Shown: positions 14,451 to 36,999 of the stretch, piece by piece
Layout of the letters: each line of letters starts with the position of its first letter
Numbering within the stretch: position 1 is the stretch's first letter
Virus record (IMG/VR): IMGVR_UViG_3300010885_041378
Coordinates: 1-39,004 of that record
From: a virus
DNA length: 39,004 nt
Direction: 5' to 3' (one strand)
Translations under genes and position numbers: made by a program
Notes under the pieces: model-generated
What the model was told of the DNA's origin: nothing
The model's input: only the letters and a program-made list of their open reading frames with translations
Databases searched by the model: none

Positions 14451-14456
14451 TATATA
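14448..14456 (+). promoter_or_regulatory. Late promoter-like motif between gp44 and gp25
   Basis: TAATATATA begins at the gp44 stop codon and ends 4 bases before the gp25 start codon. Its placement would let a late structural gene be expressed separately from the replication gene in front of it (inference). Confidence 0.4.
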
Positions 14457-14460
14457 ATTT

Positions 14461-14844
14461 ATGTTTAATTATACCGATTTTTATATAATAGATAAAACAG
14501 ATCCTTCATTTACCGCTAATCAAGTTATCGAAGATGACATCATTAGAGTTATTTTACAAAAATATAAAATGATTTTATTTACAAATAAAGGTGATTTATT
14601 TGGTAATCCAAATTTTGGTGGTGATTTAGAATTACTATTAAATGAAACATCGGTTTCAAATCAATATGTAGAAACACAATTAATTAATCAAATAATGGTG
14701 TATATACCTGAATTAAATAATATGAATTATTCATTAAAGGTAGCTTTCACTAAAGACCCAAATAATTTTTATGATATAATGTATATTTATTTCCAAATAG
14801 CCGATTATGAAGTATATGCTCAATTTGGAAAATCCATTACTTAA
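14461..14844 (+). CDS. 25: Baseplate wedge protein, gp25-like
   Basis: 127 residues; T4 gp25 is 132. The family core is present: a strand with IRVILQKYKMILFTNKGDLFGNPNFGG and L-x-x-LL, then helix residues ending in QIMVYIPELNN and a strand YDIMYIYFQI near the C-terminus. gp25 joins gp6 and gp53 in the wedge and starts sheath polymerisation, so it partners the gp18-like sheath at 30649-34608. The stop codon lies in the loop of the terminator. Confidence 0.83.
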   Translation: MFNYTDFYIIDKTDPSFTANQVIEDDIIRVILQKYKMILFTNKGDLFGNPNFGGDLELLLNETSVSNQYVETQLINQIMVYIPELNNMNYSLKVAFTKDPNNFYDIMYIYFQIADYEVYAQFGKSIT

Positions 14845-14875: not shown

Positions 14876-15487
14876 ATGAGGTATATTAAATTATTTGAAA
14901 ATTTTTCCAAGAATAGAATTCTTATTATAGTTGACGTTCAAAAATCTTTTGAAAAGTTTTTTAATAAAAATTATTTAGCAGCTCTAAATACCTATTGTAG
15001 TGATTTTGATAAAGTTTATCAAATATTCGATAATCACCATGACGGAAAAAATCCTGATAAAGATTTCTTATATGATGAAACACCAGATATAGAAAATAAA
15101 GATGATTTATATAGATTCAATAACCAAATAGATTTAATCGAAAAAAGATATAACTATAATGTTAATGCAGATTATTATAAGAAAATTTTATCAGAAGATA
15201 CATATAATACTATAAAATCTAAAGAAGGTAATATACAAAGAGGTGAATACTTCGAAACTACAGAAGGGACTATTATAGTTTATATAGGTAATAATCATAA
15301 GTGGTTTCACTGTCCAATTAAATTATATAATATATTTAAATCTATAAAAGGAGAAGAAATTGTAATAGTTGGTGGTGCAGAAAATGAGTGTATATTAGAT
15401 GTGATGATTGCAGCTAAAGCACTCGGATTAAAAATACTTAAAAATGATAAATATATTTACTCAGCAAAAAATTGCCCTATAAAATAG
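14876..15487 (+). CDS. Nicotinamidase/isochorismatase-like cysteine hydrolase with capsid-targeting-like leader
   Basis: 203 residues. After the shared leader MRYIKLFENF comes RILIIVDVQKSF, the first strand of the PncA/isochorismatase fold with its catalytic Asp, then a FDNHHDGKNPD segment that may supply metal or ring-binding residues, then EIVIVGGAENECILDVMIAA, which matches the nucleophile-elbow region with the catalytic Cys and the usual following helix, then ALGLKILKND. The catalytic Lys is not obvious. PncA enzymes convert nicotinamide to nicotinate in NAD+ salvage; other family members cut related amides. If the leader is a head-targeting sequence with cleavage at L-F-E, the enzyme would be packaged and delivered with the DNA (inference). 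Substrate uncertain. Confidence 0.65.
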   Translation: MRYIKLFENFSKNRILIIVDVQKSFEKFFNKNYLAALNTYCSDFDKVYQIFDNHHDGKNPDKDFLYDETPDIENKDDLYRFNNQIDLIEKRYNYNVNADYYKKILSEDTYNTIKSKEGNIQRGEYFETTEGTIIVYIGNNHKWFHCPIKLYNIFKSIKGEEIVIVGGAENECILDVMIAAKALGLKILKNDKYIYSAKNCPIK

Positions 15488-17104: not shown

Positions 17105-17611
17105 TTAAACTGGTAATTCTTCACCACCAGTTTGAGATTGTGCTGGTTGTGCTGTTGTTTGTGTTTGTACTTGAATTCCTGGTTGACCTTGTGCTGCTGG
17201 TTGACCTTGTGCTGCTGGTTGACCTTGTGCTGCTGGTTGACCTTGTGCTGCTGGTTGACCTTGTGCTGCTGCTGGTTCTTGTGCTGCTGGTTGACCTTGT
17301 GCTTGCCCTTGACCCTGTGCGCCACCTATAATAGCACTTGCTGGTATCTTTTCGACATCTAAACCATCTTTTATAACCCACTTTACAATTTCTTCTGCTA
17401 ACATTGCTTTACCCATTAAATCAAGAATATCTTTATTCATGTTTTGTTTAACTTTTTTAGCATAAGCTGATAAGAATTTGTCCTCAATGTCAACAATAAC
17501 ATTGACTCTATATGTATTTTCAACCTGGAATACAGTTTCGTTTACTTTATCTTCTATTTTAACTTCAGGTTTATTATTTTTAAAACCTTCGAATTTTTTT
17601 ACGTGTTTCAT
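17105..17611 (-). CDS. Protein with capsid-targeting-like leader and Gln/Pro/Ala repeat tail
   Basis: 168 residues from the ATG at 17611 (a TTG two codons upstream is less likely because the shared leader starts at this ATG). N-terminus MKHVKKFEGFKNN is the shared leader variant; its K-F-E lacks the hydrophobic P3 residue. Residues 25-90 form a small alpha/beta domain (VENTYRVNVIVDIEDKFLSAYAKKVKQ). From about residue 97 the chain is tandem AAQGQP units. Family not recognised. Probably a virion or internal protein by leader and repeat similarity with the portal tail. Confidence 0.65.
   Translation of the reverse strand: MKHVKKFEGFKNNKPEVKIEDKVNETVFQVENTYRVNVIVDIEDKFLSAYAKKVKQNMNKDILDLMGKAMLAEEIVKWVIKDGLDVEKIPASAIIGGAQGQGQAQGQPAAQEPAAAQGQPAAQGQPAAQGQPAAQGQPAAQGQPGIQVQTQTTAQPAQSQTGGEELPV
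17181..17302 (-). repeat. 18-bp tandem coding repeats (AAQGQP units)
   Basis: Five nearly identical 18-bp units, then a diverged one and a further copy, all in frame. Much richer in G+C than surrounding DNA. They also create long open frames in the other readings, which I do not regard as genes. Confidence 0.85.
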
Positions 17612-17634
17612 TATCAAAAATTGTTTTTTGTAAA

Positions 17635-17644
17635 TTATATATTA
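17635..17644 (-). promoter_or_regulatory. Late promoter-like motif upstream of 17105-17611
   Basis: The leftward strand reads TAATATATAA, 23 bases before the ATG. Confidence 0.4.
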
Positions 17645-17664
17645 TAAATAAAAAGTGGTTTTTA

Positions 17665-18225
17665 TTAAAGATGTCCTGCTAATATAGCAACAACTATTGC
17701 TCCTAGTCCACATGCAACTACAATTGCCTTATTTCTTTGTTTTTTAAACTTTTTACCTTCTTGTCTAGTTAGAGCAATTATATCGTCTTTCTTAATAATG
17801 ATACTATCTTTTGCTAGTAATCGAGCCGAACTTATAGCTATTTGTTCTTTTAAGTTTACTATTTGTAGATTTCTTGTATTCAAAGTAGAATCGTATGCTT
17901 TTATAGAAGCTTCTGCTAATACATTTGCTTTTTTATAATCATCTACAACTTGAACTAAAAAATTTACTGTTGAATCACATTCTTTGTGTAATCCTCTATA
18001 TAGATGCAATATATCTAAATCAGTATTAATTTTTTGAGCTTGTTTAATTGTAATAACAATACCGAGAGTGTCTTTTATATTTGTATTTACATTTTCACCA
18101 ATTAAATATCTTGGTATTAAAGTGCTAGTAGTATCAATAGCGGCTATGCTATAGTTTGTATAGGTTTGTGAAAATCCACTAAAACCTATTAATGTTATAA
18201 TTAATGATAATAATATTTTCTTCAT
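17665..18225 (-). CDS. Exported coiled-coil protein with C-terminal membrane anchor (spanin-like candidate)
   Basis: 186 residues. Signal peptide MKKILLSLIITLIGFSGFSQ ends in FSQ, typical of Bacteroidota exported proteins. Residues 65-150 are helical and probably coiled coil; residues 165-186 are a hydrophobic segment (IVVACGLGAIVVAILAG) after a Lys-rich patch. No lipobox Cys. The gene follows a small N-anchored coiled-coil protein by 3 bases, an arrangement like paired spanins that fuse the two membranes at lysis. Because it has both an export signal and a C-terminal anchor it also resembles a single-gene spanin. Lysis role is inferred; no endolysin or holin is seen nearby. Confidence 0.6.
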   Translation of the reverse strand: MKKILLSLIITLIGFSGFSQTYTNYSIAAIDTTSTLIPRYLIGENVNTNIKDTLGIVITIKQAQKINTDLDILHLYRGLHKECDSTVNFLVQVVDDYKKANVLAEASIKAYDSTLNTRNLQIVNLKEQIAISSARLLAKDSIIIKKDDIIALTRQEGKKFKKQRNKAIVVACGLGAIVVAILAGHL

Positions 18226-19935: not shown

Positions 19936-19956
19936 TAGTTACCAACTATTACGATT
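19928..19956. terminator. Bidirectional terminator between clpS and terminase
   Basis: 13-bp stem (19928-19940 with 19944-19956, core TCGTAATAGTT) with an ACC loop, extendable with a one-base bulge. It contains the stop codons of both converging genes. Confidence 0.75.
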
Positions 19957-22152
19957 TCTTATTCCATATTGATTCATGAATTTCCTTTGCTTATTTACAT
20001 TTGTTAATATGTCATAATCATGGTTACTACCATAATCTTCTTGTTCTTGATTTTTTAGTATATCATTAAAATATTTCAATGTAGCCGAATCGACTAATTC
20101 AGGAGCAGCTGATTCAACCATTTCTCTAAACATAAATTTAGAAAAAACGCTAGATGCATTTACTATACTCATTACAGTATCATCATTGCCAGTATCAGCG
20201 GCATATCTTATATTACCAGAAGGTAAAACATGTTTGATAAATGTAGTAATTTCATTTATATTAGTAGGGTGGTTTATATCAAAATTTCTTTTATTCATAT
20301 TTTCTTGATAATCTTTTACTAATATCTCTTTAGTAGAAGTTATTCTTAATCCAATTTTTTCTTCTTCCGAATCTACTCTATGTTTATATCTATAAAATAT
20401 ACCTGAACCATATTGATTATTACCGTCAAATAAATGTGGTAATTCTGCTAAAAATGGCATACCATATGTGTTATATTCAATAACAGCTTTAAAATTCTCA
20501 GGATTAAAATATTCAAATGCTAATACATAGAATAATTCAGCCAATTGCTTAACAGATACTAAATTAGATCTATACATACCAAATTGTTGTAAGTAAAAAA
20601 AGTCCGATATATACCTATATTCTTTTTTATACATATCAATAATTTCCATTGGTTTTGGTGCAATTCTAAACATGTTAATAACTGAGTAATCTTGTCCTAG
20701 TCCTTCCGATATATCGATTGAGAATATACCTTTAATTTTATTTCTATCTAATGGTGAGAAAATTTTAGTATCATCCACAAATTGTAAATCTTCATAATTA
20801 AACTTCAATCTTCTATCAAACTCGTATGATGGATAATGAACATAATCTTTTTTATTCTTCAATAATTCGTCAATTAACGCTTCGTTTAATAATGAACGTG
20901 AACCATCAACAAATCTCAATGCGAATTCTTGATTAAATGCATCTTCACCACCAATTTCTTTGGTAGTTTCTTCTTGCCACGTTGTAACATAGGCTAATTG
21001 TTGTATAAAGATTTGTTTACCATCTTTTTCAACTATAAACTTTTTAACATCTTCAGAAGGAACTAAAACACCATTATGTTTATTATAAATATAAACAACA
21101 TGTTTTTCTAAATCAGCTATATAATTCATTTCTACTTTAGTTTGTGGAAATGCCGCTTTAACTTGTTCAAATACTTCTTCTTTTGTCAAACCATGTTCAA
21201 ATAATTTATTTTCAAAAAGTCTAAAATATGTTACAAATCTTCCTTCTACTTCATACCAATATATTCTTTTAGATTTAAAATTTGTTTTCAGTGGATCTAA
21301 TTCCGATCTTTCAGAATCAGTTAATAATTTATAAAATAAATTCATTCCTTTTGGTGTTGAAGTTATGATTATTTTGGAGTTATTAACAGCCGCAACAATT
21401 GGATATACTGCGGTATAATATGGTTCTATAATATTAGAAGGAATGTGCGCAAATTCATCCAAATATAAGAAGTCAATTGTGAAACCAATCGCTGGTGTCT
21501 TACTTCTCGCTGCTGTTCTAATTTTACAACCATTTTCACAAACCATAGATTTTTGATTCCAACCTTTAATACCAACCTTTAAAAAGAATGGTAAATTTAC
21601 ATAAATAGATTTAATTTTATCTACAATTTCAATAGTAGTATCTCTAAGATTCGCCACAATCATTACATTTTTATCATTATTAAAAGTAATAAAATGCAAA
21701 ATTGAAATTGCTGCATTAATTGTATTATGACTTAATATGCCATTTGTATAAAATCTGTGATTGGGATGATCAATTGTTAAGTCAAACATACTTAACTTAC
21801 ATTTAGATTTATTTATTCTAATAACTTTTGATAAACCTAAATCAGTTTGTATATAAGAATTAATAGCTAAATCTTGACAAAATATTTGATTAAAATTTTC
21901 ATCAAATAAAATATGATTATCAGCACATTCTAATTGATAACCATTATCTAGTATAATTTCATATACTTTGTAAGGCTGTGTTAGATGTATATCAGTTGCT
22001 TTTTCATATCCAGTATCAGTTTTAACCTTAATATTTAATCCAGATATTGTATTTAGTATCTTCTTATTTATATCTTCTTCATCTAATGAAAGATTCCTGT
22101 ATTCGTATTTCTCAATTAATTGTATTAAGAAATATATTATTTTTTTTATCAT
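19939..22152 (-). CDS. 17: Large terminase C-terminal part preceded by the C-half of a split intein
   Basis: 737 residues. Residues 1-143 are an intein C-half: ECADNHILF (75-83) resembles intein block B, and DLTIDHPNHRFYTNGILSHN (124-143) forms blocks F and G ending in His142-Asn143. Thr144 is the +1 nucleophile. From 144 it is T4 gp17: TINAAISILHFITF continues the P-loop helix, Walker B FLYLDE (228-233), IIITSTPKG (261-269), then the RNase H-like nuclease with Asp480 (FSIDISEGLGQDYS), Glu559 (AVIEYNTYG) and Asp657/658 (GNDDTVMS). The Walker A lies in the separate gene 23634-24170. Without trans-splicing this protein has no P-loop, so splicing should be needed for packaging. The spliced enzyme would be about 716 residues against 610 in T4. 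Confidence 0.9.
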   Translation of the reverse strand: MIKKIIYFLIQLIEKYEYRNLSLDEEDINKKILNTISGLNIKVKTDTGYEKATDIHLTQPYKVYEIILDNGYQLECADNHILFDENFNQIFCQDLAINSYIQTDLGLSKVIRINKSKCKLSMFDLTIDHPNHRFYTNGILSHNTINAAISILHFITFNNDKNVMIVANLRDTTIEIVDKIKSIYVNLPFFLKVGIKGWNQKSMVCENGCKIRTAARSKTPAIGFTIDFLYLDEFAHIPSNIIEPYYTAVYPIVAAVNNSKIIITSTPKGMNLFYKLLTDSERSELDPLKTNFKSKRIYWYEVEGRFVTYFRLFENKLFEHGLTKEEVFEQVKAAFPQTKVEMNYIADLEKHVVYIYNKHNGVLVPSEDVKKFIVEKDGKQIFIQQLAYVTTWQEETTKEIGGEDAFNQEFALRFVDGSRSLLNEALIDELLKNKKDYVHYPSYEFDRRLKFNYEDLQFVDDTKIFSPLDRNKIKGIFSIDISEGLGQDYSVINMFRIAPKPMEIIDMYKKEYRYISDFFYLQQFGMYRSNLVSVKQLAELFYVLAFEYFNPENFKAVIEYNTYGMPFLAELPHLFDGNNQYGSGIFYRYKHRVDSEEEKIGLRITSTKEILVKDYQENMNKRNFDINHPTNINEITTFIKHVLPSGNIRYAADTGNDDTVMSIVNASSVFSKFMFREMVESAAPELVDSATLKYFNDILKNQEQEDYGSNHDYDILTNVNKQRKFMNQYGIRNRNSW
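21724..22152 (-). other. Split intein, C-terminal half (143 residues)
   Basis: Covers residues 1-143 of the downstream terminase gene and ends in the His-Asn pair needed for Asn cyclisation. It contains the block B-like segment, which in ordinary split inteins lies in the N-half. The first ~20 residues are helical and hydrophobic (KKIIYFLIQLIEKY) and may pair with the helical end of the N-half. Confidence 0.88.
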
Positions 22153-22191: not shown

Positions 22192-22590
22192 TTATCCAAA
22201 TACAATTTTTCCCATAGTAGCTATTTGTAAAAATATATCCGCATCCTCTGCATCATCAGTTTCGCTAACTATATTTAAGTAATTTGCTGAATATTCTTTT
22301 TTCATCGTATTTATAGCATCTAGTAAATTATTCATATTTATACTACCTAATAAATCATCTTCATCTTCTATATCATAAATATGTATTTCACCACCATTTA
22401 ATATAAATTCTCCTATCGCCTCAGATGTAGCTATATGTTTCTTACTCATTATGTTTTTTACTTCATTAGGTATATCTTTTAAATAATACCAATAATTAGA
22501 ACCTCCTTCTAATGCATTTACGAATAAATTAATTATCATTTCTTTAGTTAATTTATTCTCATAATCTTCAAATAATTTTATATATTTCAT
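22192..22590 (-). CDS. Protein with capsid-targeting-like leader, located inside the fractured terminase, 132 residues
   Basis: Begins MKYIKLFEDYENK, the shared leader with an L-F-E site. The body is acidic and mostly helical (KEMIINLFVNALEGGSNYWY, LLDAINTMKKEYSANYL) without a recognised motif. It lies 3 bases after the homing endonuclease stop and 39 bases before the C-half terminase start, all on one strand. It may be an independent cargo gene captured along with the endonuclease. No relation to inteins or terminases visible. Confidence 0.65.
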   Translation of the reverse strand: MKYIKLFEDYENKLTKEMIINLFVNALEGGSNYWYYLKDIPNEVKNIMSKKHIATSEAIGEFILNGGEIHIYDIEDEDDLLGSINMNNLLDAINTMKKEYSANYLNIVSETDDAEDADIFLQIATMGKIVFG

Positions 22591-22593
22591 TAG

Positions 22594-23610
22594 TTATATA
22601 TTTAAAAAATCTAAACATTTTTGTAGAGTACCGATTTTATCTTTTTTATACTCAGAATCCCATATAGTTAAAACTTCAAAACCAATGTTTGCAGCATCCG
22701 CAATTTTATTTGCATCTTTTTGCCATAAAAATTTTGCACTAAATCCTTTTCTGAAAGGATGTGGAAAATCATTTTCATTATATAATAATGGATTAGCATG
22801 ATATCTATCACCATTATATTCTATAAATTTACCCCTACTAATATCTGCAAAATCAAATATCCAAATACCACCTTCTTTTTTATCAATTTTATGTTCATTA
22901 TTTTTTGTAGCGAAATATACTTTTGATAATTCTTTAATATTTTTATAATTTTTAATTATTTCTAAAAATAATTCCTGACTAGCATTAGAATAACCATACT
23001 TTAAATTACCATTAGTTAATAAACTTGTCTGCCATCTATTTTGTCTATCTGTATAAACTTGTCTACCGTTTTCTTCTCCATATTTTTCTATGCATAAATC
23101 TAATGTAAATGTTTTTTGTCTTTCAGATACTTTTAATTTAGCATCTTCTAAATTAAATCCTTTTTTAATCCAATACTCAGTTTGTGCTGTTGATAACCTT
23201 ATTTTAGCTACATCTTTTGATAATTTACTTGCGGCACTTTGTTTGTTTACTTCCTCTAAATTTTTATATCCCACAAATTCTTTCGAAAATGGACTTCGTT
23301 CTTTTCTTTCCTTTTCTGTTGTATTTAATTTATGATTTGGATTATTATTACCTTTAATTTTTTCAGAAAACATATCTTTGTATTTTTGTTCTTTCATATG
23401 TAGTCCAGAAGATTTACTATTTGCTTTATGATCTGCTTCAGTTTGAATTGGAGCGTTCGGATACATAGTTCGATACGTTTTTATATCAATTCCATCTTCC
23501 TTTGCATGATTTTCCATATGTTTTCCATATACTCTTTTCATTCTTGCGCCACATAATCTACATGTGATTTTTTCTTCGTTGTCTAAAATTTTAACATTTT
23601 CTAATATCAT
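22594..23610 (-). CDS. Homing endonuclease, Vsr/EDxHD-like, between split terminase halves
   Basis: 338 residues. N-terminal zinc-binding start CRLCGARMKRVYGKHMENH (18-36), a middle helical region (TAQTEYWIKKGFNLEDAKLK, then IEKYGEENGRQVYTDRQNRW) typical of this family, and a C-terminal nuclease: WIFDFADISRGKFIEYNGDR followed by YHANP, then WQKDANKIADAANIGFEVLTIWDSEY. The Asp, EYNGD-x-x-H and W-x-x-D elements fit a Vsr-type fold. Free-standing Vsr-like endonucleases are known to sit between gene halves joined by split inteins in metagenomic 'fractured genes'; this is that layout. It would cut intact terminase alleles and spread the whole insertion. Appears intact. Confidence 0.8.
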   Translation of the reverse strand: MILENVKILDNEEKITCRLCGARMKRVYGKHMENHAKEDGIDIKTYRTMYPNAPIQTEADHKANSKSSGLHMKEQKYKDMFSEKIKGNNNPNHKLNTTEKERKERSPFSKEFVGYKNLEEVNKQSAASKLSKDVAKIRLSTAQTEYWIKKGFNLEDAKLKVSERQKTFTLDLCIEKYGEENGRQVYTDRQNRWQTSLLTNGNLKYGYSNASQELFLEIIKNYKNIKELSKVYFATKNNEHKIDKKEGGIWIFDFADISRGKFIEYNGDRYHANPLLYNENDFPHPFRKGFSAKFLWQKDANKIADAANIGFEVLTIWDSEYKKDKIGTLQKCLDFLNI

Positions 23611-23633: not shown

Positions 23634-24170
23634 TTAAATTTTTGTGTGCATGTTGTCTAAATGGGTAAGTAATTTATATAATTTTATTTTTATTTTTTCC
23701 AAAAATGTTAATTTTCTATATGAAGATAACAATGTGTAGTATAATTCGCTCAATGTTTTAATATTGGAATTTTCTATTACTATTCCACTCTGTCCAGTGG
23801 CACACTTACCTGACTGGCGACTAGCGCATAATATAACACGATTATTTTTATATAAATCTAATATACCTCTCTGATAATCTCTTAATTTTATAGGCCCAAT
23901 AGAACCATCTTCTCTTTTAATTTGACAATATCTTTCAGCAAAATATTGCACGTCATCCATACATCTAATATATTCTTGAACCTCTTCAGGTGATATACCA
24001 AATGATATACCAGCTCTTCTTATACCTACTTCATTTTTGAGCCATGGATTTTGATACCTTTTGAGTATTATACCATCACTAAGTTGTTCTGTTATTTCGT
24101 TTATATTTTTACTAGTAAATACAAATTTTTTGTTTTCTTCTTCTTGTTGTTGCTTTTTCGCAGTTGCCAT
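23634..24170 (-). CDS. 17: Large terminase N-terminal part fused to the N-half of a split intein
   Basis: 178 residues. Residues 1-122 are the start of a gp17-type terminase: helical region, ERYCQIKREDGSIGPIKLRDYQRGIL (the adenine-recognition region with its Gln) and Walker A CASRQSGK (115-122), equivalent to T4 LSRQLGKT but stopping after the Lys. Residues 123-178 are the intein N-half, starting at Cys123 (CATGQSGIVIEN, block A) and ending in a helical, basic stretch. Joining Lys122 to Thr144 of the other product rebuilds ...RQSGKTINAA..., a normal P-loop. ATG at 24170 is preceded by a shared divergent TATATATATA element. Confidence 0.9.
   Translation of the reverse strand: MATAKKQQQEEENKKFVFTSKNINEITEQLSDGIILKRYQNPWLKNEVGIRRAGISFGISPEEVQEYIRCMDDVQYFAERYCQIKREDGSIGPIKLRDYQRGILDLYKNNRVILCASRQSGKCATGQSGIVIENSNIKTLSELYYTLLSSYRKLTFLEKIKIKLYKLLTHLDNMHTKI
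23637..23804 (-). other. Split intein, N-terminal half (56 residues)
   Basis: Begins with Cys1 (codon 23802-23804) directly after the Walker A Lys codon. Block A is CATGQSGIVIENSNIKTL; no block B is present. About half the length of a usual N-half. Confidence 0.88.
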
Positions 24171-24833: not shown

Positions 24834-25028
24834 ATGAAACAAATATTAAATTTTGAGGACTTTTCAATTTTAGAAAAAAATACACCAACGAATCCTTCAT
24901 TATGGCAATCTTGTGTTGCATGGGCTAAATCTAACTATGATGTATGGCCTTCGGCATATGCAAGTGGTGCAGCTTCTAAACGCTATAAAAGTAAAGGCGG
25001 TAAATGGAAAAAAAGTAAAAAGAAATAA
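24834..25028 (+). CDS. Small basic protein with capsid-targeting-like leader, 64 residues
   Basis: Start chosen at ATG 24834 because MKQILNFEDFSILEKN matches the shared leader; the I-L-E at residues 12-14 is a possible cleavage site. The body has an SCVAWAKSNYDVWPSAYASGAASKRYKSKGG segment, a compact pattern I recall from small phage proteins, and ends in a Lys-rich tail. Its stop overlaps the next start as TAATG. Small size and positive charge fit an internal DNA-associated head protein, by analogy with T4 internal proteins. Confidence 0.65.
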   Translation: MKQILNFEDFSILEKNTPTNPSLWQSCVAWAKSNYDVWPSAYASGAASKRYKSKGGKWKKSKKK

Positions 25029-25342
25029 TGGAACATTTAAAATTATTTGAAGATTTTGTTGAAGAACTAAACGAAAAGAAAAAACCATATGCGAATTCAC
25101 ATGGTGGTGTCGATAAATGGTTTAAAGAAAAATGGGTAGATATATCCAAAACTAATAAAGATGGTAGTCATCCACCATGTGGTAGATCAGACACATCTAA
25201 AGGTGGTTATCCAAAATGTCGGAAAGCAAAAGTTGCTGGAAAAATGTCGGAAAAACAAAGAAAGGCATCAGTAGCACGTAAAAGAAAAGCAGAAAAAAAT
25301 GGCAATAAAGGAACACATAGAAAACCTAATTATGCAAGATAA
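25028..25342 (+). CDS. DUF5872-like basic protein with capsid-targeting-like leader, 104 residues
   Basis: Leader MEHLKLFEDFVEEL contains L-F-E. The body reads GGVDKWFKEKWVDISK, then PPCGRSDTSKGGYPKCRKAK and MSEKQRKASVARKRKAE, a small Cys-containing, strongly basic domain resembling DUF5872-type proteins of bacteria and phages. Translationally coupled to the preceding gene by a TAATG overlap. With cleavage after residue 8 the mature product would be a very basic ~96-residue protein, suiting packaged DNA. Function otherwise unknown. Confidence 0.7.
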   Translation: MEHLKLFEDFVEELNEKKKPYANSHGGVDKWFKEKWVDISKTNKDGSHPPCGRSDTSKGGYPKCRKAKVAGKMSEKQRKASVARKRKAEKNGNKGTHRKPNYAR

Positions 25343-27165: not shown

Positions 27166-29940
27166 ATGAAATATTTAAATACAAGAGACGTTTACTTATC
27201 TACAATAAAAATTAAATTGAATGAAGATACTGGTTCAGGAACTTTCGCAAATGATATAACATTTGGGGGTTCTCTATTAGGAAGATTAATTAATTCTACT
27301 ATAAGAAAAGCAAAGATTCAAATCAATTACATGAAAATTGGATCAATTGCAGATGAAATTAGAGATGAATTAGATAGACTTCTAAAGGAAACTCTTGATG
27401 AAGAGCAAAAGCAAGAAATTAAAGATTTCATGTTAAAAGCATTATTAGAAGAAATCTATAAAGTAGTTATTAGTGAAGTAAGTGATGTTGAAAAAATAAA
27501 TCAACTTTTAGATAAAAAAGAAGGTGATGGATTAATAACTTTAGCTGTTAAATACATTCAACAAACACCAGATGAAGTAATCTTTGGTGGTAATAAGCAA
27601 GAGCTAATTGATAAGTTAGAAAAGTTTAGAAAAGAATTAGAAGAATTAAAAGGTGAAGAAGTTAAAGAAGGGGATGATACACCTTTTTATAACTCCACTC
27701 TTAATTTTATACAAGCAGTTTTAGATTTAAGTTCTAAATTTGTTTCTTTAACTTTTGAAACAACACCAAATCAAAATACAAATGCAAATAAAATTCAAAT
27801 TGGGCAGAAATTTTTATATATCACAAATGATAATAAATCTAAATATGTCGAAGTTGTAGCAATAAATCCAAATGGTTCGATAAAAATAAAAGATATATTA
27901 GGTGGTTCTCCTTTTGCTATTGACGAGAATGAACTTAAGCCTATTCCAGATGGAACTTACTTATATAAACCAAAAACAGGTGTAAATGCTGGTAAAAATA
28001 TTATTGTATTACAAGATAATGCACTAAAGACAAAAAACCAAGTAAAAACACTCAGTGGTACTATATTTCCAGCACAGTATAATGAATTGATTAAGTTAGA
28101 AAAAATTAATTATTTACACTTAAAATACTCTAATTTTTTAAATGAAAATAATGCAACACCAGCTGCAACGCCAGCTGCAACGCCAACTGCAACTGCAACG
28201 CCAACTGCAGCTGCAACGCCAGCTGCTACGCCAACTTTAACATCAAAATCTGATGAATTATATGATATGATGCTTAAAGTTTTTAGAAATAGTTTAAAAA
28301 ATTATTTGGCTAATTTACAAGAATTAGTAAAAACAAAAAATAAAAATGAAATAGTTAAATTTGGTAAACAAATAATGCTAAATTCGTCAACCGTTGGTAA
28401 ACCAGCAACTGCTGCTGAATTAAAGATAAATGAAGATTTATTATATAATGATACAGCTAAAGGAGTATCGTTATTATGCAGATTGATTTTACCGTTGAAA
28501 AATAGCAAATTATTAAAAGAAGGTAAACTATCAAAAATTGAAGAAAGTATTAATAAAATCATTGACTCCTATGAAGAAATGCAGTCTAATTATACTAAAT
28601 CACCAGTAAAAGAGTCACTTTTATCAGAAGACGTAGATAATGATAATGAGGCGATTATTGATACAGATATGGATACACAAGAGGAAGAGGAAACAACTCC
28701 AGAAATAACTCCAGAAGCTATTAAAGAGAAAAGTGTAAAAGGTGCATGGTCAAATAATTTTAAAGAAGGCGAAGAAAAGGAATGGAATATTAATCAAGAA
28801 AAAGCTAAACAATTGTCTGAAAAAATTGAAGATTCAACAAAAGATGTAGATAATGAAAAACTAAAAGACGAAACATCAAAAGATCATATATTAAAAATAG
28901 CTGATTTATTTGGTAAAGCTTATAGACTTTATGCTACCGGTACAATCCCATCTGGAAGACCAAATGATAGAATTTCAGGTAAAACATATAGAGAATATAA
29001 GTATATTGGAACAGGAACACCTAATGTTCCTACTGAAAGTGCTGGTCCTGGATATGGTCCCTGGGCTAATATAAAAGTATATAATGAATTTACTGATAAA
29101 ATTAGTGAAATAATACAAGAAAAGAAATATAGAAAAGTATTTAATGTTGGAACTTTAGCAGGACCAAATGGTAAAGTACCTAACAAAGGTAATGTACTAT
29201 TAGAGTTTATTAGAAATATGATAGATGAGAATACATTAAAAAGTTATGAAGCTAATAGAACAAAACTTCTTAATAAATATTTTGGATTAAAACCGGATGA
29301 ATCTATATCTTCACTTGATAATTCTGGTGATGATACTAGTGGTGTAGTAAAGAAAACTGCAGAAAAAGTAATGTGGCAACAAACAGGTAATTTAGATTTT
29401 GATAAAGCAAAAATTGGTGGTTTCATAGCATTAAATGTAGAATATATAGATACTGTAAGTAAATCACCACATCATAAATGTTGGATAGGTCAAATATTGA
29501 AAAAAGATAAAGATAGAATATTGATTAAATATTTAGTTGATGATGAATTAATACCAGAAACTTATGGTATGAAAATTACTCCAGAAAATAAGTATGTAAA
29601 TACTTCTAATCCGTCAAAAGAAGTTTATTATGGTTTAATTAATTTACCACTTAAAGAAGAAGGGAAATTTAAAATGGCTAGATATGGAAGAAGTAAATTA
29701 GTGGATTCTTCAGCTCAAAAACCAGATATTTTAGAACCAACGCTTACTAAGAAAAAAGTGGTAGGAAAAACTTTTAGAAATTCAGCAACAAGAGCTAAAA
29801 TAGCAAGATTATCATATCAAGATAAAGATGGCAATGATAAATTGGTTGAAGGAACAATAGCTAATGATCGTAACAAAATATACAATGATAAACCTATTGG
29901 ATTGGATAATCTATTTACAAACATGTCAAAAGAATTATAA
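27166..29940 (+). CDS. Large probable virion protein, 924 residues
   Basis: Not recognised. N-terminus MKYLNTRDVYLSTIKIKLNE is only loosely like the shared leader. Residues 25-200 are helical (GGSLLGRLINSTIRKAKI, then DELDRLLKETLDEEQKQ). A beta segment around 205-310 contains IQIGQKFLYITNDNKSKYVE, like a small barrel. Residues about 329-360 are a low-complexity Ala/Thr/Pro linker (ATPAATPTATATPTAAATP). The middle is helical and acidic (EEEETTPEITPEAIKEK near 505), and the C-terminal 400 residues are mixed, with a second barrel-like stretch (GGFIALNVEYIDTV, HHKCWIGQIL). The gene overlaps the next as TAATG and leads the tail module, so a tail or internal virion protein is likely. Confidence 0.6.
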   Translation: MKYLNTRDVYLSTIKIKLNEDTGSGTFANDITFGGSLLGRLINSTIRKAKIQINYMKIGSIADEIRDELDRLLKETLDEEQKQEIKDFMLKALLEEIYKVVISEVSDVEKINQLLDKKEGDGLITLAVKYIQQTPDEVIFGGNKQELIDKLEKFRKELEELKGEEVKEGDDTPFYNSTLNFIQAVLDLSSKFVSLTFETTPNQNTNANKIQIGQKFLYITNDNKSKYVEVVAINPNGSIKIKDILGGSPFAIDENELKPIPDGTYLYKPKTGVNAGKNIIVLQDNALKTKNQVKTLSGTIFPAQYNELIKLEKINYLHLKYSNFLNENNATPAATPAATPTATATPTAAATPAATPTLTSKSDELYDMMLKVFRNSLKNYLANLQELVKTKNKNEIVKFGKQIMLNSSTVGKPATAAELKINEDLLYNDTAKGVSLLCRLILPLKNSKLLKEGKLSKIEESINKIIDSYEEMQSNYTKSPVKESLLSEDVDNDNEAIIDTDMDTQEEEETTPEITPEAIKEKSVKGAWSNNFKEGEEKEWNINQEKAKQLSEKIEDSTKDVDNEKLKDETSKDHILKIADLFGKAYRLYATGTIPSGRPNDRISGKTYREYKYIGTGTPNVPTESAGPGYGPWANIKVYNEFTDKISEIIQEKKYRKVFNVGTLAGPNGKVPNKGNVLLEFIRNMIDENTLKSYEANRTKLLNKYFGLKPDESISSLDNSGDDTSGVVKKTAEKVMWQQTGNLDFDKAKIGGFIALNVEYIDTVSKSPHHKCWIGQILKKDKDRILIKYLVDDELIPETYGMKITPENKYVNTSNPSKEVYYGLINLPLKEEGKFKMARYGRSKLVDSSAQKPDILEPTLTKKKVVGKTFRNSATRAKIARLSYQDKDGNDKLVEGTIANDRNKIYNDKPIGLDNLFTNMSKEL
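28151..28236 (+). repeat. Ala/Thr/Pro low-complexity coding repeat
   Basis: Tandem variants of GCAACGCCAGCT encoding ATPAATPTA units, in frame in the 924-residue gene. Unusually rich in G+C for this region. Probably a flexible linker made by slippage. Confidence 0.8.
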
Positions 29941-30572
29941 TGAAATACATAAAAACATACGAAAAATTTGATTTAGTTAAACCAGACCAGCCCTTAAGTG
30001 TAGATTTAAGGGCTGATATGACTAATTTTAATCAATCCGAATTAAATAAAAAACAATTTGATAAATATAAAGCTAAATTACAATCAATATACCAAAATTA
30101 TATTGACGATCAAACACCTAATGAAAATGGTATAGCACAAGATTTATATAACAAATTACTCTCGGCTAAATTTATTAAAAAAGGAAATCCTAAATTAAAA
30201 GGACAAATAATTTGGAAAAATCCAGATGAAACTGATGAAACTATAGCAAAAGAAAATCCTATGTTTAAAATATATGCCGAAGAACTTTCGCAAGAAAGAA
30301 AAACAAAAAAAGCGGAAGAAACTTTACAACAAAAACAAAAAGATATGGCTGAAAAAGAACAAGCTATAAAAAATAATCAAGGAGATGCTTCTGTGGCTAG
30401 TAAAGATATAGATAATATAAAAACTGATATATCCACAGAAACAGATAATTTAAGTAAAACTGCCACAGAAGTTCAAACCTTAAAAAAGGCAGCTAAGAAA
30501 GAACTTGATGATAAAAAGAAAGAGTTAGATTTAGGTAAAAGAAGGATTGAAAAACTAAAAGGTTCCAAATAA
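29940..30572 (+). CDS. Coiled-coil protein with capsid-targeting-like leader, 210 residues
   Basis: Starts MKYIKTYEKFDLVKP, a variant of the shared leader with T-Y-E. Residues 20-90 are helical and residues 95-210 are a long, very charged coiled coil (KKAEETLQQKQKDMAEKEQAIK, then KKELDDKKKELDLGKRRIEKLK). Coupled to the preceding 924-residue gene by a TAATG overlap, suggesting their products act together. It could be an internal or assembly protein; a tape-measure role is unlikely at this length. Confidence 0.6.
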   Translation: MKYIKTYEKFDLVKPDQPLSVDLRADMTNFNQSELNKKQFDKYKAKLQSIYQNYIDDQTPNENGIAQDLYNKLLSAKFIKKGNPKLKGQIIWKNPDETDETIAKENPMFKIYAEELSQERKTKKAEETLQQKQKDMAEKEQAIKNNQGDASVASKDIDNIKTDISTETDNLSKTATEVQTLKKAAKKELDDKKKELDLGKRRIEKLKGSK

Positions 30573-30648: not shown

Positions 30649-33600
30649 ATGCCATCAGTAATAATCAGTAATTATAAAAGACCAGGTATCTTTATAAATG
30701 AATATGATAATAGTGTAATAGCGAGTCAAACTTCGCAAGGTATTACAAATCTAGTCATAGGCGTTTCTAAGACAGGTCCTATAAATACTCCGGTGCTTAT
30801 ACAAACTACACAGGATTTACAAAACATCTTCGGTGGTATTGATAGAACATTAGAAAGAAAAGGTTCTTATTTCCAGAGAACAATTGCACAAATGCTTCTA
30901 TCATCTCCAGTATATGCTATAAACTTATTGGAAACTGATCCAACTTTAGATCAACTTGAATACGCTCCTTTATCAACAGCTACTAATAAAACTAATGATA
31001 TAGTAAGAACAGGTGCTTATAGTGGCTTCTTCAATACAACTGGTTTCTGGAAATTAGACACAGATTCTTTCTTAAATTTAGCTTCTGGAAATGTAAATTA
31101 TCAAAACAGATTATTAAACTTTACTAATACATCGGCTTCTTACATCACAGTATTTGTTTTCAAAACAACTGCTACTGGATTTGACGTAACTATGACAGCT
31201 TGGTATGGTTCAATAACTAATATACCACCTTATGTTTATCCAACAGATTATGTATCCGATTACATGGTAGATGTTGTGGTTGTAGCGGGTGATTGGTCAA
31301 ATTATCAAGCATTATCAGTAGATAAAACTTGGTCAAAATACTTTGACGCAACTGGTTTATTAAAAAATCAAGTTCAAAATTTCATTAATGATAGAAATGT
31401 TACATTATTAAAATACTATCAAGGTTTAAGTTTTATTCCTTATTTCAGAGATTCTAATAATCAAAACATATTTATTGAAACAGTAATTAACCAAGATACT
31501 CAAATAACTGGCTTATTCTGTGCATTTAACGCTGATTTATTAGATACTGATTTCCCAACTGGTGCTATTGACTTAATAGGTAATAACCTTATTAATACAG
31601 ATAGTTTAGTTGATTCTAACTCTACTAGTATTGATTTCTTATCTTATAATGAAAGTTTAATTTCAACATTAGAATTTAAAAATACAATTTTAGATGCACC
31701 GGGTAATGTAATAGCATTGGATTCTACATTATTATTTAATACAGATATAGTAGATTTTTCGCAAAGATCTGATAATTATGCAGAAGATACCGTAAGTGGT
31801 GTTCTAAGAGCTACTTCGGCTACACACTCTTCAACAGCGGCTAGTGTTGCTTATAATGTTTCTACAACAGCAAATACTCATAATAGCGAAATGCCATATG
31901 CTATAATAGGTGGTAACATAGTTTATGTAACTAGTGGACCAACTGTTTCTATATCTGTTAGCAATACTAACTTTGCTTCTAAATCCGCAACAGCAAGTTA
32001 TTATACAGCAATTAAATTAGATACAAATGGTTCTATAACTAATGTTACTTCAACTGTGGCTTCAGCAAAACCTACAGTTGCAGCATCTGATATTATTCTT
32101 GGTTATATGTATACAACAGTACAAGGTGGTAACATAGTTGCAAATACTGTTACAGACGTAACAGTTGCTACTGCAAGTTATTTAGACTTAGAGGCGAATA
32201 CAGATTACACGATTACATCTGGTGGAAGTAATAATACATTTACTATTACATTTACTGATACAGCAGTTAATCCAGCTACTTCTAACTATGAACAATATAG
32301 AAGAATCAAAAGATTTAATTCTTTAAGAACATTATTACAATCAGTTCAAATACAAAAATCAGTAATATTACTAGATTTAGATGGATTAGGCGACTACAAA
32401 AAGATAAGTATGGCTAACATGGGTATTAGTGTAGTAACTTCTACTTCACAAGATAAATCCATAACAATACAAACTAATCTTGGGTTAAGCGAAGCTACAT
32501 TTGCAGCAAATGTTATAAATGGTTTAGAAACTGCTTTAGTAATATATGCTAACGATAATGAGTTAATCTTATCCGATAATAAAATGGTTACAACAACTTC
32601 GCCAGCAACATCTAATTTAATTGGCGCAAGTGCGGTTGGTGTTGTGGGACAGTTCTCTACTTTATATCAAGATTTTTATAATGGTGTTATAAATAGTGGC
32701 GACTACTTCTATGCCAATGTTTTACAATATGACGCAGGTCTTGTTTATACAACATATACTGCTTCAAGCGTAAGCTTTGTACATACAACTAGCGGAACAT
32801 ATTCTGGATTAAACTTTGTAGTAATTGTTACTGACAAAAGCTACTTACCGTTTGATGACGGTTCTGGTGGAAATAAATTTGGCAACACATTTAATAGTAT
32901 AGTAGTACCTGATTCAATGCTAAATATGGGTAAATTAACTATAGCATCAGATCCATTTGGACAACACTCAATAGGTTATAACTATGCATCAGCATTAGGT
33001 TATACACAATCTTATACATATGCTTATTTAGTGGGTGATTCATTAAATACTGAAACAATTTACAATGTAACAAGAATTTGGGATGCCGATACTAAGTATT
33101 ACTTAGCAATGGATATTGATTCTAATAATAACTTAACAGTTAATATAACTGGTGATGATTTATATACTTATCAAGGAAATTTAACACAATTAGCTGATTG
33201 CTTTAGCGTAAATACTTCTTTCTATGTTAATTCATTCGAATCAGATTATCAAGAAACTGTTGAAATAGTTGTTCCAACTGGATATACACAAGTACCTAAT
33301 CAAATTTTAGTAAATGCTGCTAGATATTCAAATATAATAGTTGGTGATTTCTTATTACAAGATAATACTACTGCAGAGTTAGAAGTTGGACAACAAGCTA
33401 AAAACTTAACAAGAATTCTTTCTAAGAGAGTTTATAGCGGAGATAGTACATTAGCTTTAATAACTTGTGATGCGGCAATATACAAATTCCCATTCGGTAA
33501 TCAAGCATCTACAACTTATCAAACAATGAGATATTCTTCATTAGATAATTATGTATCTACTTATAAGGCTATTCCATTAAAAGGATTTAGAATACGTCAA

Positions 33601-34608
33601 GCGTCTTTACCAGATGGTACTGAAGCAAAACAAAATGAAATACTTAATTTAGTTGCTAAAGGAACTCCTTTATATAATGCAATTATAAATAAAGATGCAT
33701 TAGACTTTAGATATTTAATTGATTCTTTCGGACTTGGTTTAACAGAGTTTTCAAAACAACAATTATCTGATATTTGTGGTGGTAGATTAAATTGTCTTGG
33801 TTTCATAAATATGCCTTCTATGAAGTCATTTAGACAATCAAGTTCACCTAAGTTTACAGATGCAAATGGTGTATTACAAACTTCTTATATCGCACAAGGT
33901 GGTGACTTAGAAAGTAATCCAGCATTCTTATATAGCATGGCAGAAGGAGCGGGTACTACTTGCGTAGGTTACTTTGCACCATATCTTACAGTTAATGATA
34001 ATGGAGCACCACTAAGCGTTCCACCAGCAATGTTTGCTGCATCAACTTATATGAGAAAGTTCAATACTAATGTAACTTCAATAGTTCCTTGGACAATTGC
34101 AGCTGGTACAACAAATGGTTTAATAACTGGTATAGCTGGTGTTGAAATGGACTTCAATCCAACAGACGTTGAAAACTTAAATCAGGCTCAATTTAATCCA
34201 ATTATTCTTAAGAAGAATAGAGGATGGGTAATTGATACTGAAAATACAGCATTAACTCTTTATAAATCAGCATTATCTTACTTACACGTTAGAGAGGTAT
34301 TGATTGAATTAGAAAACGCTTTAAATGATATGTTATTACAATTCCAATGGAAGTTTAATACACAAGATACAAGAGCGGAAATTAAGTTAAGAGCAGATGT
34401 TATTTGTGCTGGATTTGTTAACAGAAATGGTTTATATAACTACTTTAACAAGTGTGATTCAGAAAATAACACAAATACATTAATAGATAATCAAATAGGC
34501 GTATTAGATACATATATCGAACCAATTAAAGGATTAGCTGTTATAGTAAATAACATTACAGTTCTTAAAACTGGTGCTATTGCAAGTGGTGGTTTCCAAT
34601 CTCTATAA
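30649..34608 (+). CDS. 18: Tail sheath protein, gp18-like, double length
   Basis: 1319 residues, about twice T4 gp18 (659). The N-terminus PSVIISNYKRPGIFINEYDNS, then TNLVIGVSKTGPINTPVLI and the FGG with following SYFQRTIAQMLL segment are typical of contractile-tail sheaths. The C-terminal third has the conserved sheath core (KGFRIRQASLPDGTEAKQNEI, GGRLNCLGFINMPSMKSF, APYLTVNDNGAPLSVPPAMF, NPIILKKNRGWVIDTENTAL, then the terminal helix region with LLQFQWKFNTQDTRAEIKLRAD). Roughly residues 110-930 hold large insertions rich in Ser/Thr/Asn and beta structure (for example HSSTAASVAYNVSTTAN), probably extra domains exposed on the tail surface. It should contract on infection together with the gp25-like and gp15-like proteins. 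No tube gene follows within the window. Confidence 0.88.
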   Translation: MPSVIISNYKRPGIFINEYDNSVIASQTSQGITNLVIGVSKTGPINTPVLIQTTQDLQNIFGGIDRTLERKGSYFQRTIAQMLLSSPVYAINLLETDPTLDQLEYAPLSTATNKTNDIVRTGAYSGFFNTTGFWKLDTDSFLNLASGNVNYQNRLLNFTNTSASYITVFVFKTTATGFDVTMTAWYGSITNIPPYVYPTDYVSDYMVDVVVVAGDWSNYQALSVDKTWSKYFDATGLLKNQVQNFINDRNVTLLKYYQGLSFIPYFRDSNNQNIFIETVINQDTQITGLFCAFNADLLDTDFPTGAIDLIGNNLINTDSLVDSNSTSIDFLSYNESLISTLEFKNTILDAPGNVIALDSTLLFNTDIVDFSQRSDNYAEDTVSGVLRATSATHSSTAASVAYNVSTTANTHNSEMPYAIIGGNIVYVTSGPTVSISVSNTNFASKSATASYYTAIKLDTNGSITNVTSTVASAKPTVAASDIILGYMYTTVQGGNIVANTVTDVTVATASYLDLEANTDYTITSGGSNNTFTITFTDTAVNPATSNYEQYRRIKRFNSLRTLLQSVQIQKSVILLDLDGLGDYKKISMANMGISVVTSTSQDKSITIQTNLGLSEATFAANVINGLETALVIYANDNELILSDNKMVTTTSPATSNLIGASAVGVVGQFSTLYQDFYNGVINSGDYFYANVLQYDAGLVYTTYTASSVSFVHTTSGTYSGLNFVVIVTDKSYLPFDDGSGGNKFGNTFNSIVVPDSMLNMGKLTIASDPFGQHSIGYNYASALGYTQSYTYAYLVGDSLNTETIYNVTRIWDADTKYYLAMDIDSNNNLTVNITGDDLYTYQGNLTQLADCFSVNTSFYVNSFESDYQETVEIVVPTGYTQVPNQILVNAARYSNIIVGDFLLQDNTTAELEVGQQAKNLTRILSKRVYSGDSTLALITCDAAIYKFPFGNQASTTYQTMRYSSLDNYVSTYKAIPLKGFRIRQASLPDGTEAKQNEILNLVAKGTPLYNAIINKDALDFRYLIDSFGLGLTEFSKQQLSDICGGRLNCLGFINMPSMKSFRQSSSPKFTDANGVLQTSYIAQGGDLESNPAFLYSMAEGAGTTCVGYFAPYLTVNDNGAPLSVPPAMFAASTYMRKFNTNVTSIVPWTIAAGTTNGLITGIAGVEMDFNPTDVENLNQAQFNPIILKKNRGWVIDTENTALTLYKSALSYLHVREVLIELENALNDMLLQFQWKFNTQDTRAEIKLRADVICAGFVNRNGLYNYFNKCDSENNTNTLIDNQIGVLDTYIEPIKGLAVIVNNITVLKTGAIASGGFQSL

Positions 34609-34622
34609 TAGATTATCAAAAT

Positions 34623-34653
34623 AAAAAATGCTCCCAAATTGGGAGCATTTTTT
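34623..34653 (+). terminator. Terminator after tail sheath
   Basis: 14-bp stem (34623-34636 with 34640-34653, core TGCTCCCA/TGGGAGCA) with an AAT loop and a T-rich end, 14 bases past the sheath stop. Confidence 0.85.
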
Positions 34654-34672
34654 ATTTTGAATACTCATATAT

Positions 34673-34686: not shown

Positions 34687-36141
34687 ATGAGTAAATTATT
34701 AAGCAATACAACTATAAATGGCATAAATTCTTTTAGAAGTTTTGGTCCAGCGACAGCGAGTATTTCTGCTTTAACTTTTAGCACAAATAGAAATAAAGCG
34801 GTAACATTATCAGTCACTAATCCAGTAATACTAAGAGAAGTATCTATATATACACAAATTGGAGATTATAATCATATTGATTTAAACAATAGGTTTCAAA
34901 TAATTATTGCTACTAGTTCATTAGCATATGGCTCATATGTAGGTTGGCAGTCTTCTTGGAATGCAACTGCTTCAGCTAATTATTATATATCCTCTAATTA
35001 TACATTTAGTAATTTATTAAGCTCCACACCAATTATACAAAAAATACCATTAGATATTTTATTAAGTCCTGGTGCTTATGATTTCTATTTAGACGAAACA
35101 TATAATCTATATTATGGTATGGATAATTTAGGCTATATTTTAACAACAACAACAAGTAATTACCCATATATTGACCCAAGTGGTAGTATAAGAGTAATTG
35201 GGACATCATCTACTATGAATCAAAGAGGATTGACTAATAGCGTAGGTAATATCTTTTTTAACTGGGTTGTATCTGATGTTGAAGATGTGATAATAGAAAA
35301 TGGTTCTTTAGGCTTATATAATACTACAAATAGTTTAAAATCTTCATTTTCATTTTTATCAGGTAATAATGAGCTAGTATCTATAAAAAATAAACCGTTT
35401 TCATATACAGCATCATTTGTTATATCAAATGTCACATCAAGCAATTTATTAAAAATAGGTGAAGTTACAAATATAAACTCATATTATAAATTAAATACAG
35501 GTAAAGTATTAATGGCAAACTCAAGCAATACTGGAATATGGACAACATATAGTAATGCAAACGCTATATCACAATCTTTTAATTTTTGGAATACGGGTAA
35601 TAGCATTTGTGCAACTGCTTCCGAAGGACAAATAATGTCGATACAAGCTCCAGATGGTTGGGTATTTGTAAAAGTTGATTTTGCATCATACGGACTTCCA
35701 AATGGAACTTGCTCTAGTTTTGCGATTTCCACCAGTTACCACGCAACCTCAAGTGTGGATAAAGTTTCTAGTTTAATTTTAGGTAAAAATTATGCAACAA
35801 TATCAGCTACAAATGATGTATTTGGTGATCCGGCTTACTCATATCATAAAAGACTTTATGTTAGAGCACTTTTTTCTTCGGATTTCAATTATGTAACTAT
35901 TTCAAACGTTTATCCAAGTGCACCTACTTATAGTTATTTAGCAAATTTAAATACATCTTTTAGTAATAACTATACTTATCAAATTATAGATAATTCATCT
36001 TATAGTCCCGTATCAGCATCAATTTCATTTTATGACGGAAATACAAATTCTGTAACAAGTAATTATTATGCTGTAATAAGTGGAACTAGTTCTGGTGGAC
36101 CAAATGTAGCTTATCCAGGATGGAAAATAATAATAATTTAA
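34687..36141 (+). CDS. Fibre or adhesin protein with SUEL-type lectin domain, 484 residues
   Basis: Start taken at ATG 34687 (MSKLLSNTTINGINSFRSFG); a longer reading from 34639 would pass through the terminator and promoter motif. Ser/Thr/Asn/Tyr-rich, beta-type throughout, typical of fibres. Residues about 310-398 follow the galactose/rhamnose-binding SUEL lectin pattern: ASEGQIMSIQAPDGWVFVKV, then DFASYGLPNGTCSSF, an H-A-T-S-S turn, LILGKNYATISATNDVFGDP and KRLYVRALF. Most of the family's disulphide Cys are replaced, as expected for an intracellularly folded phage protein. The C-terminus (SVTSNYYAVISGTSSGGPN) is Ser/Gly-rich. Probable role: binding host surface glycans. The domain call is by pattern only. 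Confidence 0.68.
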   Translation: MSKLLSNTTINGINSFRSFGPATASISALTFSTNRNKAVTLSVTNPVILREVSIYTQIGDYNHIDLNNRFQIIIATSSLAYGSYVGWQSSWNATASANYYISSNYTFSNLLSSTPIIQKIPLDILLSPGAYDFYLDETYNLYYGMDNLGYILTTTTSNYPYIDPSGSIRVIGTSSTMNQRGLTNSVGNIFFNWVVSDVEDVIIENGSLGLYNTTNSLKSSFSFLSGNNELVSIKNKPFSYTASFVISNVTSSNLLKIGEVTNINSYYKLNTGKVLMANSSNTGIWTTYSNANAISQSFNFWNTGNSICATASEGQIMSIQAPDGWVFVKVDFASYGLPNGTCSSFAISTSYHATSSVDKVSSLILGKNYATISATNDVFGDPAYSYHKRLYVRALFSSDFNYVTISNVYPSAPTYSYLANLNTSFSNNYTYQIIDNSSYSPVSASISFYDGNTNSVTSNYYAVISGTSSGGPNVAYPGWKIIII

Positions 36142-36144
36142 CAT

Positions 36145-36999
36145 ATGAAGATACTTAATAGTTTAACAATTACAGCAGACGATAGAGGATCATCAAATAA
36201 TCCACTTGGTAGTAGCAATTTCAATAACCTATCTACAAGTTTATTAAATGATTTTATCATTAGTGGTGATACATTTCAAAGTTATATTGATTCTAATATA
36301 TTAAATGATATTTGGTATAATGGTGAAGCTTTACCATTTGTTGTATTACCAACAGCTCAAAATAGTGCTGGTTTATATATTACAAATAGTTATGTAACTA
36401 TAAATACATCAAATATAACCAGTACCATATTCTCATATTCAGGACTTACAAGTGGTAATCTAATACTAAATACTTCCGGTAATCTATCAATAGATTCAAA
36501 AAAAGGATTTACTGATTTTATCTTAAATGACAACTCTTCAAATATAGGTAGTTTATTATCTATAAATAGTGGAAATACTTATTGGGCTAAACCTGGCTTT
36601 ACACAAACATCATACTATGATTTATATCAAGATATAGGTGGATTTCCAAATCTAAGGTCATTTTCAGCCACATTTAGTTTCAGTGGTGCAACAGCAATAG
36701 GTGGATTGCGTTACGCTATTCCATGGGGAATGTCATATACCTCTTCTGTTGTATCCGGCATAACATCTTCGGCTGCAAGTGGATACTATAATATAGATGT
36801 ATATCATAATTTAGGAAATACATATTCTATTGTTAATTTCTTTGCTTATACTTCATCACAATGGCAAATGTTATATCCAACTATTGGTTTATCTGGTGTA
36901 ACTGGAACATTTTCATATTATTCATATGGAAATAACATTAGAATATCACTAACTGGTAGTTTACCAACTACACCTATACAAGTAAATATTATAGGATAA
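36145..36999 (+). CDS. Fibre-like virion protein, 284 residues
   Basis: Starts 3 bases after the lectin-domain gene stops. Composition is Ser/Thr/Asn/Gly/Tyr-rich with short strands and no enzyme motif. The N-terminal 60 residues (NPLGSSNFNNLSTSLLNDFI) may attach to a partner; residues 150-284 look like a compact beta domain (AIPWGMSYTSSVVSGITSSA, then GYYNIDVYHNLGNTYSIVNF). It probably forms part of the same distal tail or fibre assembly as its neighbours. Not matched to a named family. Confidence 0.6.
   Translation: MKILNSLTITADDRGSSNNPLGSSNFNNLSTSLLNDFIISGDTFQSYIDSNILNDIWYNGEALPFVVLPTAQNSAGLYITNSYVTINTSNITSTIFSYSGLTSGNLILNTSGNLSIDSKKGFTDFILNDNSSNIGSLLSINSGNTYWAKPGFTQTSYYDLYQDIGGFPNLRSFSATFSFSGATAIGGLRYAIPWGMSYTSSVVSGITSSAASGYYNIDVYHNLGNTYSIVNFFAYTSSQWQMLYPTIGLSGVTGTFSYYSYGNNIRISLTGSLPTTPIQVNIIG

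Follow-up and report, generated by a model that had tools for sequence, protein, structure and literature searches.

A SUEL-type lectin domain with similarity to Bacteroidota surface lectins in a protein encoded behind the tail sheath gene of a megaphage

Introduction

Does a protein encoded behind the tail sheath gene of a phage carry a true lectin domain, where do the nearest relatives of this domain lie, and which sugar could it hold? The question arises from one gene, that of the protein P0001, in an IMG/VR virus record of 39,004 bases, the whole of which was analysed and is called the window here. A sequence-only reading of this DNA had seen in the gene a SUEL-type galactose/rhamnose lectin domain of a phage fibre protein, and a candidate module for the recognition of host glycans. 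The features considered below are collected in Table 1.

Table 1. Positions in the window of the P0001 gene, its lectin domain and its neighbours
Feature	Position	Strand	Evidence or remark
Tail sheath gene, upstream neighbour	30649..34608	+	phrog_34521, E 1.5e-87; 50% identity to megaphage sheath
Terminator-like 21-bp hairpin in the sheath/lectin gap	34616..34660	+	-28.3 kcal/mol, z -8.65
CDS of the SUEL-lectin protein P0001	34687..36141	+	484 aa, ATG to stop
SUEL/Gal_Lectin domain, about residues 303-399	35593..35883	+	Pfam PF02140, PDB sequence matches, AF2 model, fold searches
C308 codon	35608..35610	+	putative partner of C342; both Cys in 12 of the 14 prokaryotic/viral sequences with either
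E313 codon	35623..35625	+	alignment; CSL3 Glu7 / latrophilin-1 Glu42
Y335 codon	35689..35691	+	alignment; CSL3 Tyr27 / latrophilin-1 Tyr63
C342 codon	35710..35712	+	loop-1 Cys
Y351 codon	35737..35739	+	replaces Cys4, the partner of Cys7
N376-D-V-F-G-D381	35812..35829	+	alignment; CSL3 Asn74 and Asp79
Loop 2, A383-Y-S385-Y-H-K388	35833..35850	+	alignment; K388 is CSL3 Lys86 / latrophilin-1 Lys120
Downstream neighbour of 284 aa, likely appendage protein	36145..36999	+	position only; 3 bases past the P0001 stop
NHL beta-propeller protein, 844 aa	37014..39004	+	TEN_NHL, E 3.3e-33; completed on sister contig G001

Results

The domain is a member of the SUEL family

The sequence-only reading had set the start and stop of the P0001 frame as we do (Table 1), and the protein opens with MSKLLSNTTINGINSF. 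A longer reading from a TTG at 34639 was rejected, because this position lies inside the strong 21-bp hairpin.

When the whole of P0001 was compared with Pfam, the profile PF02140 (SUEL_Lectin) matched residues 323-394 with 31.1 bits (E 3.1e-7), just below the cut-off of 31.4, and residues 291-404 alone passed this cut-off with 35.5 bits (E 1.3e-8); a PF02140 profile search of the genome gave 35 bits for the domain. Among the solved structures, the sea-urchin lectin SUL-I was matched by phmmer at 9.4e-18 over three domains. To exclude circularity, an HMM was restricted to four animal and plant SUEL sequences, and it scored P0001 at 40.9 bits, whereas the best of 4,000 shuffles reached 8.3 bits. 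The domain is a genuine member of the SUEL/Gal_Lectin family (PF02140). The order of motifs noticed earlier at about residues 310-398 is borne out, as S312-E313-G, FASYG (332-336), C342, H352-A353, N376-DVFGDP-382 and K388-R-L.

AlphaFold2 (AF2), run on residues 291-404 with 54 relatives, gave a mean pLDDT of 87, and 82 of the 114 residues reached at least 90. The first 14 matches found by Foldseek in the PDB were all SUEL/RBL domains, from SUL-I to the latrophilins (E 1e-7 to 1.5e-3), and the first unrelated match followed at E 0.045. Comparison by VIA showed that SUL-I, CSL3, the latrophilin Lec domain and the C-terminal domain of rice beta-galactosidase 1 resemble P0001 in fold (Z 11.7-14.5; the rice domain at 14.5, rmsd 1.5 over 98 residues). 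The pocket residues are shared as well, the identity of this animal and plant set being 16-28%. The model thus predicts the SUEL alpha/beta fold for the domain. Since a profile match and a SUEL fold, the two tests of SUEL identity named beforehand, were both obtained, this identity is supported.

In a library of viral structures, the best two matches were the uncultured Caudovirales phage proteins A0A6J5NGG5 (652 aa) and A0A6J5PD65 (657 aa), which are longer than P0001 and show 42% and 37% identity to it over the domain. UniProt names both of them SUEL lectin domain containing protein, and therefore the idea of a SUEL domain in phages is already present in databases. The algal giant virus CeV-01B, too, has a protein with a predicted SUEL-like domain (BFVD A0A0N7G7M7).

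The domain is flanked by about 300 N-terminal and about 85 C-terminal residues of unknown family, for which Pfam and PHROGs gave no match. For residues 1-301 and 400-484, the viral contigs yielded relatives only on G001, a sister contig of this phage that is 99.97% identical to the window over 10,234 bases. Because AF2 of full-length P0001 (mean pLDDT 51.5) was confident for the lectin domain only, we make no claim on the fold of the rest. Residues 221-291 matched the CBM of 5klc at E 0.031 when compared with solved structures by phmmer.

The disulphides of SUEL domains connect C1-C3, C2-C8, C4-C7 and C5-C6 (PMC3269628). The earlier remark that most of the disulphide cysteines are replaced was correct, as C308 and C342 are the only cysteines left in the domain. 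Most prokaryotic and viral members keep C4-C7 only, and some have the N-terminal and loop-1 cysteines as well. C4 and C7 were both present in 65 sequences and both absent in two (the window and L080); the N-terminal and loop-1 cysteines occurred together in 12 sequences, were both missing in 53 and stood singly in two, and C5 and C6 were both found in one. Cysteines thus disappear in pairs, in agreement with the disulphide topology of SUEL domains, and Fisher values on the pairs are not strict probabilities because related sequences are not independent. A putative disulphide would join C308 and C342. The eight-Cys pattern and the YGR and DPC-KYL motifs of animal rhamnose-binding lectins are absent from P0001, unlike the animal SUEL members, which have eight Cys and YGR; by these motifs, P0001 is a SUEL family member outside the eight-Cys animal subfamily.

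Pocket residues and the changes in loop 2

The primary site of CSL3 is formed by the side chains of Glu7, Tyr27, Asn74, Asp79 and Lys86 together with the backbone of Gly83 (PMC3269628), and mutation showed that Glu42 and Lys120 of latrophilin-1, equivalent to CSL3 Glu7 and Lys86, are essential for sugar binding (PMC2430599). According to our alignment, all five side chains are kept in P0001 as E313, Y335, N376, D381 and K388. The alignment consisted of 55 contig rows, of which PF02140 matched 52; of the 54 rows besides the window, 51 came from virus contigs and three from genomes of Bacteroidota. Asn, Asp, Lys and Gly83 were identical in 54 of these 54 rows, and Glu and Tyr in 53.

Loop 2 reads DPAYSYHKRL in P0001 and DPCxGxxKRL otherwise, with A383 in place of Cys7 and S385 in place of Gly83, and the Arg of YGR is replaced by Leu (YGL). 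Binding may be weaker or altered as a result. The main rival explanation starts here: the SUEL fold would be kept and the binding of simple sugars lost, or changed through loop 2, so that the domain has a structural role or binds protein, as is the case for some latrophilin/EVA-1 relatives. Apart from the window, none of the 55 contig rows lacks Gly at position 83, and only one other is without Cys4-Cys7; the branch of the window in the tree described below is long (0.88), and binding was lost in some animal SUEL domains (PMC2430599). However, Glu and Lys, the loss of which marks the non-binders (PMC2430599), are kept together with Tyr, Asn and Asp; Gly83 gives a backbone contact only, which may persist via Ser385; and the Arg of YGR is absent in most bacterial and viral members too. 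We consider a loss of binding unlikely on balance.

Similarity to Bacteroidota surface adhesins

Two scans gave about 70 viral-contig loci with a SUEL domain besides the phage of the window. Many of the viral SUEL proteins, L055, L059, L019, L034 and similar ones, appear to be secreted and anchored in a membrane: they have a signal-like N terminus and a stalk that is proline-rich or of low complexity, and part of them also a hydrophobic C terminus. In bacteria, PF02140 matched 5 of the 395 genomes searched from the phylum of F. limicola and 9 of the 397 from its family. The best bacterial matches, obtained by one exact-pattern genome scan, were from Pontibacter and Flavobacterium (50-53% identity), and in one genome scanned the Bacteroidota SUEL domain lay within large multidomain proteins with HYR repeats.

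A profile of our alignment found RemA of F. johnsoniae at 3.2e-25. RemA is a mobile gliding adhesin, for which binding of the galactose-containing EPS of neighbouring cells is reported (PMC8481357). The SUEL domain of RemA (residues about 710-808, 8gl6 chain D) is of the same subtype as that of P0001 (FASYG-P-G-C, CHA, ATN-FGDP, KRL) and has kept the pocket side chains, the N-terminal Cys and the loop-1 Cys. RemA and its Bacteroidota kin differ from P0001 in that they belong to the bacterial surface, carry HYR/Ig-like repeats and keep the Cys4-Cys7 pair and Gly83, both of which were lost in P0001.

P0001 scored 101 bits with a Bacteroidota-only HMM versus 85.8 bits with a viral-only HMM. In a tree of 71 rows and 97 columns, the window was placed among Bacteroidota-type sequences (84/91) at a fork that is not strongly supported, and its nearest neighbour was L004/L035 (support 80/81). 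Given this fork and the long branch of the window, we make no claim on which way a transfer went. Animal and plant proteins, which the earlier description had brought to the fore, are therefore not the nearest kin; by identity, profile and HMM scores, RemA-type surface adhesins of Bacteroidota come closest, and the P0001 domain is kin to Bacteroidota surface lectins. That the phage captured its host's own RemA-type lectin, and binds the same EPS as the motility adhesins of gliding Bacteroidota, is a tentative reading, which we regard as possible rather than probable.

Tail genes around the lectin gene

The sheath and TerL of the window are nearest to those of uncultured megaphages of 634-642 kb (50-51% and 56-59% identity, respectively), and the gene order from TerL to sheath is common to both. 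The window contig is a megaphage fragment. Behind the sheath, those megaphages encode no lectin but a protein of 315-319 aa that shows no similarity to P0001. The next relatives of sheath and TerL were mostly from Bacteroidota phages (Flavobacterium, Prevotella, Tenacibaculum), Sphingomonas phage PAU being the exception among the TerL rows. On these gene relationships, the host is likely to be a member of the Bacteroidota.

TerL is apparently interrupted within its Walker A site by a split intein, and its parts lie at 23634-24170 and 19939-22152 (both minus strand). The N part ends with ASRQSGK followed by CATGQSG..., and in the C part ...GILSHN stands ahead of TINAAIS. Pfam Intein_splicing matched residues 102-143 of the C part at E 7.8e-7, below the cut-off, and a related megaphage has an unbroken TerL gene. 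The ORF between the two parts (22594-23610, minus strand) encodes 338 aa and belongs to no known family. In addition, a tag like MKYIKLFEDF opens many otherwise different ORFs, in the window at 9240-9740, 17105-17611 and 22192-22590 on the minus strand and 14876-15487, 25028-25342 and 29940-30572 on the plus strand, and in the contig L099 at 6594-7049 (minus), 14172-14552 and 17502-17807 (both plus). This tag is reminiscent of the leader sequences that target the internal head proteins of T4 to the capsid.

The hairpin in the gap between sheath and lectin genes was missing from the listing of the consensus scan. The 284-aa downstream neighbour had no family match in Pfam or PHROGs, and BLAST for modules shared among the three neighbouring proteins gave nothing significant (best E 0.19). 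The model that matched the NHL protein is that of teneurin. In animals, teneurin pairs with latrophilin, itself a SUEL-lectin protein, and the link to the present gene pair is probably a coincidence.

The designation of P0001 as a fibre protein held in part. The position behind the tail sheath gene agrees with it, but neither a fibre family match nor a confident model was obtained outside the lectin domain, and because of this the term is taken from the position beside the sheath. SUEL genes adjoin tail-fibre genes in two other cases: that of L035, a stand-alone SUEL protein of 114 aa, lies 18 bases behind a tail-fibre gene, and that of L040 (437 aa) directly follows two short-tail-fibre genes and a tail-collar gene. 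Unlike P0001, these proteins, from unrelated phages, either start with the domain or consist of nothing else, and the L040 type has six Cys. The SUEL genes of L037 and L078, and many other viral ones, lie away from fibre genes. The kept sugar-contact side chains, together with lectin genes beside fibre genes in unrelated phages, strengthen the proposal of a candidate glycan-recognition module.

When P0001 as a whole (E limit 0.01) or its domain (E limit 10) was compared with 50,697 phage records, only short chance matches with E >1 were observed, and the SUEL domain was not found in PHROGs; the setting of P0001 is unrepresented in these two collections. A literature search for SUEL lectins in phages found no relevant paper in the library covered.

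Discussion

We propose that P0001 is a virion adhesin of a Bacteroidota-infecting megaphage, and that its SUEL domain, shared with Bacteroidota lectins, binds a host polysaccharide, which we consider probable though well short of certain. P0001 would be assembled into the virion as a fibre or baseplate appendage, with the single SUEL domain as its carbohydrate-binding tip. Because this domain is closest to the surface lectins of gliding Bacteroidota, the phage probably grips a rhamnose or galactose sugar on its host; the tip would hold L-rhamnose or D-galactose of the surface or capsular polysaccharide via the usual SUEL pocket. The grip on the sugar would lead to a reversible first attachment. 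The source of the domain would be a SUEL domain of the kind found in RemA and other Bacteroidota surface proteins, or both would go back to a common ancestor. Points against the proposal are that monosaccharide binding by single SUEL domains is weak and that the nearest megaphages have no lectin gene behind the sheath.

After the loss of binding discussed above, the next alternative is a virion lectin aimed at mucus, algal or biofilm polysaccharide, holding the phage near its hosts and not acting on a receptor, for which the Ig-like decorations of other phages offer a comparison. SUEL domains also bind galactose-containing eukaryotic glycans (PMC3269628), and RemA is itself reported to bind EPS between cells (PMC8481357), but the P0001 gene stands among tail and not capsid genes, and SUEL genes of other phages have tail-fibre neighbours; we judge this alternative improbable. 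A third alternative places P0001 outside the virion: the infected cell would display or secrete it, for instance so that cells clump or competing phages are kept out. The secreted look of the large viral set of L055 and L019 types would agree with this, but it is very improbable, since no signal peptide was seen by eye at the N terminus of P0001 and since its gene is flanked by the sheath gene on one side and by other appendage-like genes on the other.

With P0001 read as a virion adhesin, an unannotated megaphage appendage gene gains a named sugar-binding fold and its contact residues. The records searched contain no cultured member of this megaphage group, and the domain makes the receptor chemistry of such phages easy to test, as a single purified protein suffices. 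If the lectin was indeed captured from the host, phage adsorption and host self-adhesion would compete for one sugar. The similarities described here indicate an exchange of lectin modules between the surface adhesins of Bacteroidota and phages.
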